From Paenibacillus polygoni (GTDB lineage: Bacteria > Bacillota > Bacilli > Paenibacillales > Paenibacillaceae), in contig NZ_CP127162.1 of NCBI RefSeq assembly GCF_030263935.1, positions 3,357,501-3,421,500 of the forward strand: DNA of 64,000 bases. Direction: 5' to 3'. The position numbers and the translations under genes are program-made. The notes beneath the pieces are model-generated. The model had not been told where the DNA came from. It made no database searches and saw only the letters and a list, made by a program, of their open reading frames with translations. Shown piece after piece: positions 16,401 to 51,587 of the stretch (position 1 is its first letter; every line of letters starts with the position of its first letter).

Positions 16401-16480
16401 CCCAAAAGTCAAAAAAGAGTCACTTAACGATCGTCCCTTCTGTCTCGGTCCTCTTCGGCTCAGAGCAGAATCCAACAAAC
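16401..16480 (-). promoter_or_regulatory. Structured leader RNA candidate of the panBCD operon
   Basis: Just upstream of the leader terminator, the minus-strand RNA can fold into nested hairpins. TTCTG pairs with CAGAA, and inside it CTCT and AGAG close a GAGCCGA loop, with GACCGAGA on the 3' side. A downstream GATCGTTAAGTGACTC segment shares AGTGAC with the terminator hairpin. A stem-loop followed by a terminator upstream of pantothenate genes recalls the described pan RNA motif, but I cannot confirm its consensus here. No T-box signature (GGGTGGNACCGCG) is present. The whole 16256-16685 gap otherwise holds only terminators and AT-rich sequence. Confidence 0.45.
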
Positions 16481-16628
16481 CTATAAAATATAGATTACAA
16501 AGAAACTAACTTATTGAGTGCAGTTCAAATGGTGATCATTTAATACCGCCTCAAGAAGAAAGTATACCAAAAAAAGATCAAATGTCTATGCCTCGGAATA
16601 ATTAATCTAAAGCATACAGGATGAACCA

Positions 16629-39134: not shown

Positions 39135-40697
39135 TTATCCTTTTTGATTGGATGACATACAAATATAGTCTTGGTTAGCATACGCTGGAGCTGATGGCTC
39201 TACAGGAAACATCGCTTCTGCGTAGCGAATGGCGGTCAGCAGAGCTTTTGCCTTATTTACAGTTTCCTCGTATTCTTTTTCGGATACCGAGTCCCATACA
39301 ATTCCTGCCCCTGCTTGCACGTAAGCTTTACCTTCTTTAAAAATAATGGTACGGATCGTGATGCAAGTATCCATATTGCCAGTAAAACCGAGATACCCGA
39401 TTGCGCCAGCATAGGCCCCTCTCGCTTCACGTTCCAGTTCAGCAATGATCTCCATTGCTCTCAGTTTAGGAGCCCCCGATACCGTACCTGCTGGCAGACA
39501 TGACAGAAATGCGTCAAAGAAATCACGATCATCACGAAGTGTACCGGAGACATTGGATACCATGTGCATGACATGTGAATATTTCTCGATTTCCATATAG
39601 GAATCGCACTTCACGCTGCCAAACTCACTGACTCTCCCAATATCGTTCCGACCAAGATCCACTAACATGAGATGTTCTGAACGTTCTTTCTCATCCGTAA
39701 GTAAATCTTGTGCTAATTCAGCATCCTGTGCTTCTGTCTTGCCTCGTGGCCTGGTTCCGGCAATGGGTCTCGTCTGCACGCGACCTCCGTCCACTTTTAC
39801 AAGCGGTTCAGGTGAAGTGCCGACGATGATTTCTGCCTCCATTTTTAGATAATACATATAAGGGGAAGGATTAAGTGTTCGAAGTACACGGTATACTTGA
39901 AGCGGCGATACTTCCGTTTCGATATGAAAACGCTGAGATAATACGACTTGAAAAATATCTCCCGCCCGAATATATTCCTTAGCCTTTTCCGTATTTGCGA
40001 GAAATTTTTCTTTCGTCAGATTTGAGTGTACCTTCCCCAGATCCACAGCATCTGGAATCGATCGACGATTCACATTTTCCGCAGGTCCTTCTTCTGCCAG
40101 CTGACTTGCGAGCTGTTCAAGCCGATCTGTCACTCTTTGATAAGTTTCAAGAATATCTTGATCCAGATCTCCCGGGTTCACATGTACATTGCCAACAAGC
40201 AGGATCTGCTGCTTCACATGATCGAAGACGATAATTTCATCACAGAACATAAACTGAATATCTTCCATTTGAAGATCATCCACCTCATGTTTCGGAAGTT
40301 TTTCATAATATTGAAGCAAGTCATATCCGAAGAATCCAATAGCTCCGCCTGTAAAAGGAGGCAAATCTTTTATTTTGGGACTGCGATATTGTCTCAGCAG
40401 TGCTTTCAATTCTTCAATCGGTTTTGCTTTCATTTGTGATTTTTCGCCTTTATGTGTGAGTGTTAACACACCATTCTTCCCTGCTATCGATAAAAAAGGA
40501 GCGGTACCAATAAAAGAATATCTAGCCCACTGGCTGCCTCCTTCTACACTTTCCAGTAAAAAAGCATATTCCTCATTTGCAAATCGGCTAAATAATCGAA
40601 TGGGCGTCTCCATATCGGCCAAAATCCGCTTTACCACAGGAATGAGATTATATTCTGTTGCTAATTTTAATACTTGCTGTGCTTCGCTATTCATCAT
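39135..40697 (-). CDS. trpE: Anthranilate synthase component I
   Basis: Chorismate to anthranilate, feedback-inhibited by tryptophan. About 520 residues from ATG 40697. The inhibitor-binding N-terminal part contains LLESVEGGSQWARYSFIG. The catalytic region has GDIFQVVLSQRF, PSPYMYYLKM, the chorismate-site TRPIAGTRPRGKT and LVDLGRNDIGRVS. The late motifs GTVSGAPKLRAMEII and GAGIVWDSVSEKEYEET are present. AAGGAGAG lies just upstream, and ATG 40694 is an equally good choice. It is the first trp gene and sits about 500 nt downstream of its own promoter behind a TRAP-type leader with a terminator. Confidence 0.96.
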   Translation of the reverse strand: MMNSEAQQVLKLATEYNLIPVVKRILADMETPIRLFSRFANEEYAFLLESVEGGSQWARYSFIGTAPFLSIAGKNGVLTLTHKGEKSQMKAKPIEELKALLRQYRSPKIKDLPPFTGGAIGFFGYDLLQYYEKLPKHEVDDLQMEDIQFMFCDEIIVFDHVKQQILLVGNVHVNPGDLDQDILETYQRVTDRLEQLASQLAEEGPAENVNRRSIPDAVDLGKVHSNLTKEKFLANTEKAKEYIRAGDIFQVVLSQRFHIETEVSPLQVYRVLRTLNPSPYMYYLKMEAEIIVGTSPEPLVKVDGGRVQTRPIAGTRPRGKTEAQDAELAQDLLTDEKERSEHLMLVDLGRNDIGRVSEFGSVKCDSYMEIEKYSHVMHMVSNVSGTLRDDRDFFDAFLSCLPAGTVSGAPKLRAMEIIAELEREARGAYAGAIGYLGFTGNMDTCITIRTIIFKEGKAYVQAGAGIVWDSVSEKEYEETVNKAKALLTAIRYAEAMFPVEPSAPAYANQDYICMSSNQKG

Positions 40698-40761
40698 AAA
40701 ACTCTCCTTTTTCATTGAGATAGGCAGAGTGTAGATGGATGGAAGTAGGATATGCTTACGC

Positions 40762-40791
40762 AAAAAAACCTCTACGAGAACGTAGAGGTTT
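40762..40791 (-). terminator. Leader terminator (attenuator) upstream of trpE
   Basis: Minus strand: AAACCTCTACG, short loop, CGTAGAGGTTT, then TTTTTT. It sits about 65 nt before the trpE start, downstream of the TRAP-type triplets. The arm CTCTAC can instead pair with GTAGAG inside the triplet region or with ACGTAG at 40897-40892, so it could be a conditional terminator. Confidence 0.88.
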
Positions 40792-40925
40792 ATAAAAACA
40801 ATAATAAAGTTAAGTGTATACAGCATGATCCGATCATGGAGGTTTATCTATCTATGTACAAAGAAAGAGTCTTATCCGATGATACGTAATCCTACGTAAT
40901 CAAAAGAAGCCTATGAACTCTTATC

Positions 40926-40964
40926 CACAGCATCCATATTTCTATAAACATGGCCCATGCTGTG
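40926..40964 (-). promoter_or_regulatory. Large hairpin in the trp leader RNA
   Basis: Minus strand: CACAGCAT, bulge GGG, CCATGTTT, loop ATAG, AAATATGG, ATGCTGTG. This is a 16-bp stem with one bulge and one G-U pair. It lies between the TRAP-type triplets and the terminator and has no U-run, so it is not itself a terminator. It may organise or pause the leader RNA. Confidence 0.6.
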
Positions 40965-40998
40965 ATTCATATGTACAAGATATTGCTAAAATCCATGT

Positions 40999-41100
40999 TC
41001 ATCTCTCCCTATTGGTCCATACACCAAAGTATGAATCAATGGGTTGTTCCTCACTCTTTATGCTACCTATATGCGCTACCGCACATAAGCCATAAATCAT
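40999..41100 (-). CDS. Candidate 33-residue leader ORF in the trp leader
   Basis: ATG 41100 opens a 33-codon frame ending TGA at 40999, with one Trp codon near its end (FGVWTNRER). The position expected for its ribosome-binding site is occupied by the last two GAG triplets of the TRAP-type site (GAG-AC-GAG, then 5 nt, then ATG). The Shine-Dalgarno match is weak. No homolog is known to me. Bound TRAP would cover the start region, so translation could respond to tryptophan. It may equally be a chance ORF, and conservation is untested. Confidence 0.3.
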   Translation of the reverse strand: MIYGLCAVAHIGSIKSEEQPIDSYFGVWTNRER

Positions 41101-41105
41101 AGGAA

Positions 41106-41177
41106 CTCGTCTCAGCTCTGCTATACTCTACTCAATTAAAGTTTTATCTAAACTCTAAACTCTTCTCATCTCTGCTA
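41106..41177 (-). promoter_or_regulatory. TRAP (MtrB) binding site: 11-12 GAG/UAG triplets
   Basis: Read on the minus strand, triplets start at 41177 (UAG), 41172 (GAG), 41167 (GAG), 41162 (GAG), 41157 (UAG) and 41150 (UAG). After a 14-nt gap they continue at 41133 (GAG), 41128 (GAG), 41123 (UAG), 41118 (GAG), 41113 (GAG) and 41108 (GAG). Within each cluster the period is almost always 5 nt (2-nt spacers), which is the spacing TRAP needs to wrap RNA around its ring. The site begins at the predicted transcription start. The matching regulator mtrB is encoded at 51340-51567. Confidence 0.9.
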
Positions 41178-41183
41178 ACAATC

Positions 41184-41213
41184 ACTATACATTACATCTA
41201 CAGGTTTTGGCAA
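41184..41213 (-). promoter_or_regulatory. Promoter of the trp leader and trpE operon
   Basis: Minus strand: TTGCCA (41213-41208), 18-bp spacer, TATAGT (41189-41184). Both hexamers match the sigma-A consensus at 5 of 6 positions. Start is expected near 41177, exactly where the triplet array begins. It overlaps the region just after the aroH stop, as the trp promoter does in B. subtilis. Confidence 0.85.
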
Positions 41214-41227
41214 GAAGCCATTTTCAC

Positions 41228-41605
41228 CTATGTATTCGATGGTTCTGCTAAATCCGGCCTCAAAGCCTTAGCTCCATTCAGATATACGTGAACCATTTCC
41301 TTTTGCGTTTTGTCTGTATTCACATGAATCATGAACCGAATACATTTCTCCAGTGACCCTTTGACAGGTACCTCCTGCGAACACATGAGGGGAACAAGCT
41401 CCCATCCCTGTAATTCACGAATGGACTTGGCAGGAAATGCTGCATCCAGATCTTTCGTCAGCGTAATCCATACGCTGCATATCGCCTCAGGATCGAGCGA
41501 ATTCTTCTGGACAATTTCTCTGAGAAGCTTGCTTGTTTCACTCACAATATCTGCTTCCGTATTGCTCGCAACCGTTGTTGCACCGCGAATTCCTCTTGTG
41601 TACAT
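41228..41605 (-). CDS. aroH: Chorismate mutase (AroH class)
   Basis: Converts chorismate to prephenate. A 125-residue protein of the compact trimeric AroH class: MYTRGIRGATTVASNTEADI, CSVWITLTKDLDAAFPA, MCSQEVPVKGSLEKCIRFM and HVYLNGAKALRPDL. The active-site arginines (R7 and the LRPDL arginine) are visible. It is 6 bp after aroB. The trp promoter lies just past its stop. Confidence 0.97.
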   Translation of the reverse strand: MYTRGIRGATTVASNTEADIVSETSKLLREIVQKNSLDPEAICSVWITLTKDLDAAFPAKSIRELQGWELVPLMCSQEVPVKGSLEKCIRFMIHVNTDKTQKEMVHVYLNGAKALRPDLAEPSNT

Positions 41606-51339: not shown

Positions 51340-51567
51340 TTATTGATCTGATTCAATAACACCGTGTTTTGTCATGACTTCTGCTTTGCCGCGAATTTTA
51401 ATAGCAGAGGTATGATCTGTAAATTGTGCGATGAGAACCTCACCCTTATCAAGCTTCTCCGTATGGTGGAACCGGGTATCATGACCTCGTGTCAAACCAA
51501 TGACATGAACACCGTTCTCTTTTGCCTTGATTACGATATAATCCCCGTTGTTGATTGGACCTTCCAT
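51340..51567 (-). CDS. mtrB: Tryptophan RNA-binding attenuation protein TRAP
   Basis: Ring-forming regulator that binds GAG/UAG repeats when loaded with tryptophan. 75 residues from ATG 51567. It has [20 protein letters not shown] and [20 protein letters not shown], then TSAIKIRG. The RNA-contacting Lys-Lys-Arg set of B. subtilis TRAP (K37, K56, R58) is conserved in EKLDKGEV and IKIRG. The tryptophan-binding [12 protein letters not shown] and AQFTDHTSA segments are also present. AAGGGG lies 8 nt upstream. It lies after the HU gene as in Bacillus, but folE, which separates them there, is missing. Its likely target is the trp leader at 41.1 kb. Confidence 0.95.
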
Positions 51568-51587
51568 GAACTTCACCCCTTCCTGCT

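Follow-up and report, generated by a model that had tools for sequence, protein, structure and literature searches.

A conserved GAG/UAG triplet array and a distal terminator suggest long-range TRAP attenuation of the trp operon in Paenibacillus

What controls the trp operon of Paenibacillus polygoni? In our window, the 64,000-nucleotide stretch of its genome that we analyzed, aroH, aroB and a chorismate synthase gene precede the operon trpEDCFBA-hisC-tyrA, and the leader between aroH and trpE carries 12 KAG (GAG or UAG) triplets at 41177-41106 of the minus strand (Table 1). TRAP attenuation is textbook knowledge. We give a probability of roughly 60% to a reading in which tryptophan-loaded TRAP sits on this array and attenuates trpEDCFBA about 310 nucleotides downstream by way of a long-range antiterminator. 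When tryptophan is low, the free nascent array would pair with the stretch before and within the 5' arm of the terminator; this long-range antiterminator would close off the entire leader, and polymerase would enter trpE. With enough tryptophan, TRAP would wrap the array as it emerges and the partner block would stay free; the terminator would then form and transcription would end before trpE.

Table 1. Features of the trp leader region and mtrB, in window positions
Feature	Position	Strand	Remarks
aroH (chorismate mutase)	41228..41605	-	upstream neighbour of the trp leader
Predicted sigma-A-type promoter	41184..41213	-	-35 TTGCCA 41213-41208, 18 nt, -10 TATAGT 41189-41184
Array cluster 1	41148..41177	-	TAG GAG GAG GAG TAG (+ overlapping GAG) TAG; starts 41177 TAG, 41172 GAG, 41167 GAG, 41162 GAG, 41157 TAG (GAG 41155 overlaps), 41150 TAG; largely invariant in 8 window-clade leaders
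Gap between array clusters	41134..41147	-	14 nt; length varies among relatives
Array cluster 2	41106..41133	-	GAG GAG TAG GAG GAG GAG, period 5; starts 41133 and 41128 GAG, 41123 TAG, 41118, 41113 and 41108 GAG
Middle domain of leader	40817..41105	-	long, mostly variable, predicted local hairpins; contains conserved GGTAGCAT element
3' block	40782..40816	-	takes in most of the 5' arm of the terminator; proposed array partner (antiterminator 3' strand); partly conserved
Intrinsic terminator	40762..40791	-	AAACCTCTACG-TTCT-CGTAGAGGTTT; stem 40791-40766, seven T at 40768-40762
trpE ribosome-binding site	40701..40710	-	AAAGGAGAGT; inside predicted hairpin
trpE	39135..40697	-	followed by trpDCFBA-hisC-tyrA
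mtrB (encodes TRAP)	51340..51576	-	GTG start as listed; Pfam TrpBP 141.1 bits; NCBIfam MtrB equivalog 144.8 bits (cut-off 117)

Is the array more than a purine-rich stretch? Its triplets follow one another in steps of 5 nucleotides save a single step of 7 (one 4-nucleotide spacer), as a run of five plus one in the first cluster and an unbroken six in the second. The original prediction had described 11-12 GAG/UAG triplets from the predicted transcription start, in clusters of 5+1 and 6 with a mostly 5-nucleotide period and 14 nucleotides between them; the triplet coordinates agree on each point, with 12 triplets found where about 11, 2-3 nucleotides apart, would be expected of a TRAP site in a trp leader. 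None of 3000 Markov controls of leader composition reached the 12 non-overlapping triplets per 75 nucleotides, the highest count being 10, in three controls. The maximum per 75 nucleotides was 9 in 60 simulated 64-kb sequences, and outside the array the window does not exceed 6 on the plus strand and 7 on the minus strand. Across 75 leaders of the genus, the sense strand has a median of 11 triplets (8-13) and the antisense strand a median of 3 (maximum 6).

The pattern (KAGNN)x4-KAG occurs at three places in the whole 4.94-Mb genome: the trp leader, a TAGAT microsatellite resembling such an array (G000:C1:1188229-1188261), and the start of a methyltransferase-like gene. Read backwards, the pattern gives five matches; GAG is palindromic in this reading, which makes it a poor control and means that single matches say little, and for triplet runs we replaced the reversed sequence by the antisense and Markov controls. 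At the methyltransferase-like gene, six GAG triplets with 2-nucleotide spacers (G000:C1:2138792-2138819; L005 1501-1528) lie over the start of the reading frame, which has an SD-like sequence, an ATG at 1514 of L005 and only a weak NCBIfam hit. This could be a further TRAP target or chance.

Just past aroH, where a sigma-A-like promoter had been claimed, we find a minus-strand site that matches the consensus at 10 of 12 positions; promoter-like sites are not rarer here than by chance (2 found, 2.9 expected from shuffles of the same region, both strands). Of the 75 genus leaders, 74 have the motif TATA[GT]TG, followed at a median of 11 nucleotides (range 0-28) by the first triplet pair. Judged from the position of the -10 box, the first triplet would lie at about +1 of the predicted transcription start, with the trpE ATG (40697) some 480 nucleotides farther on. 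The aroH gene is present in all 75 genus genomes; its closest named relatives are those of Paenibacillus sp. J45TS6 (98%), An7 and P. gallinarum (97%).

The window genome has one mtrB, about 10 kb upstream of the trp leader and beside an HU gene. By eye, the spacing between mtrB and aroH is 9-10 kb in the genus genomes compared, and in one (G008) the two genes are on separate contigs. The original prediction had mtrB at 51.3 kb encode a TRAP with its RNA-contact residues, and this holds: the Pfam and NCBIfam matches are joined by F32, E36, K37, D39, K56 and R58, all kept at positions that we placed by what we take to be the B. subtilis TRAP sequence. The list of contact positions is that given in PMC3184956. 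In the alignment, the window MtrB has Lys15 and Ser72; this differs from the Paenibacillus TRAP with Lys15 and Thr72 for which Chen and colleagues suggested 12-mers (PMC3184956). Residue 60 (B. subtilis numbering) is Lys in the window MtrB and also in every one of the 26 TRAPs that could be matched in 30 Bacilli loci, a biased sample made up of the best-scoring loci. We had considered Lys60 as a Paenibacillus peculiarity and rejected this on those counts. The residue is Glu in B. subtilis, where it is implicated in polymerase contact (PMC3913778, PMC4027176), and the Glu60 studied there may be the exception among TRAPs of Bacilli. One query for anti-TRAP found none; its one weak hit (E 0.04) is a GC-rich sequence with an internal stop.

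Do the array and the protein occur together? All 75 genus leaders, each of them distinct in sequence, contain eight or more triplets per 75 nucleotides, as do 47 of the 51 leaders taken from 18 further genera of the family. These 51 were kept from 60 genomes, hand-picked for genus spread out of 148; the nine dropped gave no trpE hit, one of them being cut by a contig end. Outside the family, the same density is reached by 29 of 35 mtrB-positive leaders compared to 0 of 16 mtrB-negative leaders, with the reservation that some of the TrpE matches in both sets may be pabB instead of trpE. The 35 leaders come from an outgroup in which 46 of 49 genomes had a TrpE match, and the 16 from a set in which 17 of 20 had one. 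The original prediction had named triplets missing from strains with mtrB as the finding that would speak against it, and these counts show them kept there. We conclude that the array is very likely a binding site for TRAP, and the inference that the trp genes are TRAP-controlled appears well supported by the array, mtrB, the conservation and the co-occurrence.

The mtrB gene was found in all 75 genus genomes, in all 197 sampled family genomes and, across the class, in 272 of 398 genomes and 118 of the 145 genera sampled. The breadth of this distribution makes TRAP control of trp look general in Bacilli and not a Bacillus speciality. The original prediction had set the locus outside the well-studied Bacillus examples, which is correct as to genus, but the setting is not a rare one. 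In one genome (G060:C1:3274986-3275190), mtrB is matched by two overlapping segments that differ in reading frame, possibly a natural loss or a sequencing error, and the array is still in its trp leader (L082). Two leaders of 714-715 nucleotides (L062 and L063, from G023 and G017) have two separate triplet clusters, at about leader positions 67-157 and 290-312.

What would TRAP do on this array? The locus resembles the B. subtilis trp leader in having an mtrB-encoded TRAP with the contact residues, about 11 (G/U)AG triplets with 2-3-nucleotide spacers, a terminator before trpE, and an array proposed as the 5' strand of an antiterminator. The differences are in the layout. The B. subtilis leader is reported as 203 nucleotides long with a weak attenuator at +108 to +133 (PMC3913778); here the array would lie at about +1, the ATG is about 480 nucleotides on, and the terminator, with an 11-bp stem and seven T, begins 314 nucleotides past the last array triplet. 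Having more than 11 triplets is shared with the TRAP leader of Bacillus halodurans, for which 19 NAG triplets are given (PMC3184956), compared to 12 here.

The distant terminator recurs in the relatives. Our scan found one between the array and trpE in 125 of 126 leaders of the family, always 83-458 nucleotides behind the array; the only other leader (L069), which is absent from the 125-leader set, ends by eye in a hairpin of the GGTAGAGGC type. The distance from the array end to the terminator arm has a median of 321 nucleotides in the genus (148-458; n = 74) and 140 in the family's other genera (83-430; n = 51). Outside the family the median is 26 nucleotides (9-215; n = 22), where 28 of 35 leaders were examined, a terminator was found behind the array in 22 under a laxer rule than for the family, and the values of 215, 117 and 70 are probably wrong terminator picks. 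Both comparisons give p < 1E-8 (Mann-Whitney, kinship uncorrected). L259, the only one of the 22 that belongs to another family in the same order, has the same terminator type at 114 nucleotides. Median hairpin energies are -16.7 kcal/mol in the genus, -16.4 in the other genera and -13.4 outside the family. Together the distance and energy medians indicate that a long leader ending in a strong, far-off terminator is characteristic of this lineage. Of the B. subtilis-type arrangement, the terminator between array and first gene is present and the array directly beside the attenuator is not, at 314 nucleotides here against the median of 26 outside the family. Attenuation is what the distal terminator and the conservation of a long leader suggest, and for the trp operon we consider it likely at this terminator. 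The original prediction did not mention the terminator and spoke of a TRAP-controlled trp promoter, a misleading term, since no sign of regulated initiation turned up.

Could the array reach a terminator so far away? In RNAalifold consensus structures without the terminator 3' arm, the array GUAGAG pairs with the arm CUCUAC in clade A2 (15 of its 16 leaders) and clade A3 (23 leaders hand-picked from 48). Further array:block helices are GUUGAGAU:AUUUCAAU and AAGAGUGC:GCAUUCUU in A2 and, with bulges, AUAUAGCAGAGUCC:GGGACUUGUUAUUUAU in A3. When the 3' arm is included, both consensus structures have the terminator formed and GUAGAG released. In these helices 96-99% of cells pair, compared with 34-47% after sliding by 1-3 columns, a control that favours structures derived from the same alignment, as the tool warns. 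Shuffled columns of the 3' block are as low in energy as the real ones in 1-2 of 200 cases for A2 and 0-4 of 200 for A3, and shuffled array columns in 0-2 of 200 for both. Both strands of the long-range helices are nearly invariant while the leader middle varies, so that covariation is sparse, with few compensatory changes.

Tests on single leaders give a more mixed picture. The best partner of the arm lies inside the array in 63 of 125 leaders, against 26% expected by length. In the 68 of these 125 used for shuffling, pairing between arm and array falls when the array (p = 1.7E-6) or the spacers (p = 7E-4) are shuffled. Folded up to the terminator 5' arm, the arm pairs with the array at a mean probability of 0.62 out of 0.64 paired, a value that is mostly generic, given that shuffled arms reach 0.617 (p = 0.41) and swapped arms 0.57-0.60 (p = 0.036-0.048). 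A test across genera, on 66 of the 68 leaders, gave no significant preference of arrays for their own arm (p = 0.24 and 0.08). Single sequences from other genera lend modest support: over 51 leaders z averages -0.68 and -0.78, and 9 and 11 leaders pass the 5% level. In the clade of the window itself (A1, 8 leaders), the array:block pairing is predicted, but 200 of 200 shuffled blocks are as low in the alignment fold, and 25-138 of 200 shuffles are as low in single sequences. We had also considered that the array mimics the terminator 3' arm in every genus, with co-evolution; arm swaps between terminator classes cost little, the best partner of the arm fell inside the array in no more than the 63 of 125 leaders given above, and we rejected this as a general claim. 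Four leaders of one genus (L102, L106, L109 and L110; g5) share, with small differences, an element ATGTCCGGCGGCAAGAGGGC..GGAGTG.CGGGGAG just before the array, which is complementary, by eye, to the GCTCCCGC arm of their own terminators.

The two states were compared in a set of 67 folded leaders, 16 hand-picked from the genus and 51 from other genera. When the array is barred from pairing, all 67 form the terminator, and 61 also contain it in their unconstrained MFE structure. In full-length leaders the terminator state has the lower energy, by a median of 11.1 kcal/mol in the 16 genus leaders and 10.2 in the 51 family leaders; thus antitermination would have to be kinetic. By judgement, we moderately favour a long-range array:block antiterminator in P. 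polygoni itself.

It is tempting to go further and hypothesize that the TRAP of Paenibacillaceae works as a pure long-range RNA switch over 200-320 nucleotides, in which capture of the very 5' end of the RNA decides, through pairing, whether the terminator forms. We regard this as tentative, with the balance slightly against it. If true, TRAP could do without contacting or pushing polymerase, opposite to B. subtilis, where a direct role has been proposed and TRAP is argued to drive polymerase to terminate besides rearranging the RNA (PMC3913778). The two roles are hard to separate in B. subtilis because TRAP sits beside a weak attenuator. Paenibacillus would offer a natural separation of them, with the array at about +1, a strong terminator some 300 nucleotides on, and a Lys60 that fits a TRAP without polymerase contact. 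The antiterminator would also be a long one for a protein-controlled leader, and the system may provide a handle on tryptophan control in a biotechnologically used genus.

Might TRAP on the array instead act directly on RNA polymerase, near the array or at the terminator brought close by folding? In B. subtilis, termination by TRAP in vivo is reported not to depend on the attenuator hairpin and to require only A+U-rich sequence behind the binding site (PMC3913778); a moderately A+U-rich stretch, judged by eye, follows the array here, and the failure of array:block pairing to exceed shuffled controls in the window clade would fit such action as well. We nevertheless consider it unlikely. A strong terminator kept 83-458 nucleotides away in 125 family leaders would be superfluous, and residue 60 is Lys, the substitution (E60K) that impairs termination by B. 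subtilis TRAP according to unpublished observations mentioned in PMC3913778 and PMC4027176.

Slightly less likely still is control exerted mainly on translation or mRNA stability, by a hairpin that hides the trpE ribosome-binding site or by a 5' end that is shielded or exposed. Translation of trpE is reported as TRAP-controlled in B. subtilis (PMC7430163). In five of eight window-clade leaders, a predicted hairpin pairs the SD with an upstream CACUCU-like sequence, the SD being otherwise paired in the remaining three, and in all eight genomes of this clade 4-5 triplets run into the trpG SD. However, SD pairing is close to that of shuffled sequences, both in the genus (0.77 vs 0.72; higher in 34 of 52) and in other genera (0.60 vs 0.62; higher in 21 of 37), and the conserved terminator would be left unexplained. 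It is very improbable that the array is a vestige or a chance purine-rich stretch and that a T-box, leader peptide or riboswitch controls the operon: the leader is long and largely unexplained, and by eye a short ORF with an SD-like sequence begins near 40996, but this ORF reads without a Trp codon, the array is conserved and tracks mtrB, and no T-box or riboswitch was found in the trp leader at gathering score, with only weak, implausible matches below it.

Attenuation by TRAP through the distal terminator thus remains the reading that we prefer. The T-box trp leaders of other Firmicutes also make a choice between terminator and antiterminator in a long leader ahead of the trp genes; the leader here shares the length and would share the terminator choice with them, and has no T-box match. 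We consider the novelty to be the lineage-specific long-range layout, as a variant of TRAP attenuation. Our search of the open-licence literature found no description of a Paenibacillus trp leader, and a subscription paper may have priority. A Paenibacillus TRAP protein is mentioned in PMC3184956, and mtrB of P. polymyxa is listed in PMC7773762.

Several minor observations concern this genome and its relatives. Many genus members (L020, L032, L046, L048 and others) have some 190-230 extra bases of similar sequence between terminator and trpE, which resemble an inserted mobile repeat and give leaders of about 690-735 nucleotides compared to about 500. At the trpG/pabA start (G000:C1 about 79353-79371; L255 1473-1491), the triplets GAG, GAG, TAG and GAG run into the trpG ribosome-binding site. 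Control of trpG translation is known in B. subtilis, and the window-clade triplets resemble that case. In other clades, no four-triplet run was seen by eye at the trpG start in 28 readable loci of 29 (L307 excluded). The loci came from 30 of the 75 genus genomes, one of them of the window clade, and a role for trpG as a genus-wide TRAP target is not supported. Elsewhere in the window, a pan motif (Rfam RF01749) is matched at 16436-16552 with 46.1 bits.
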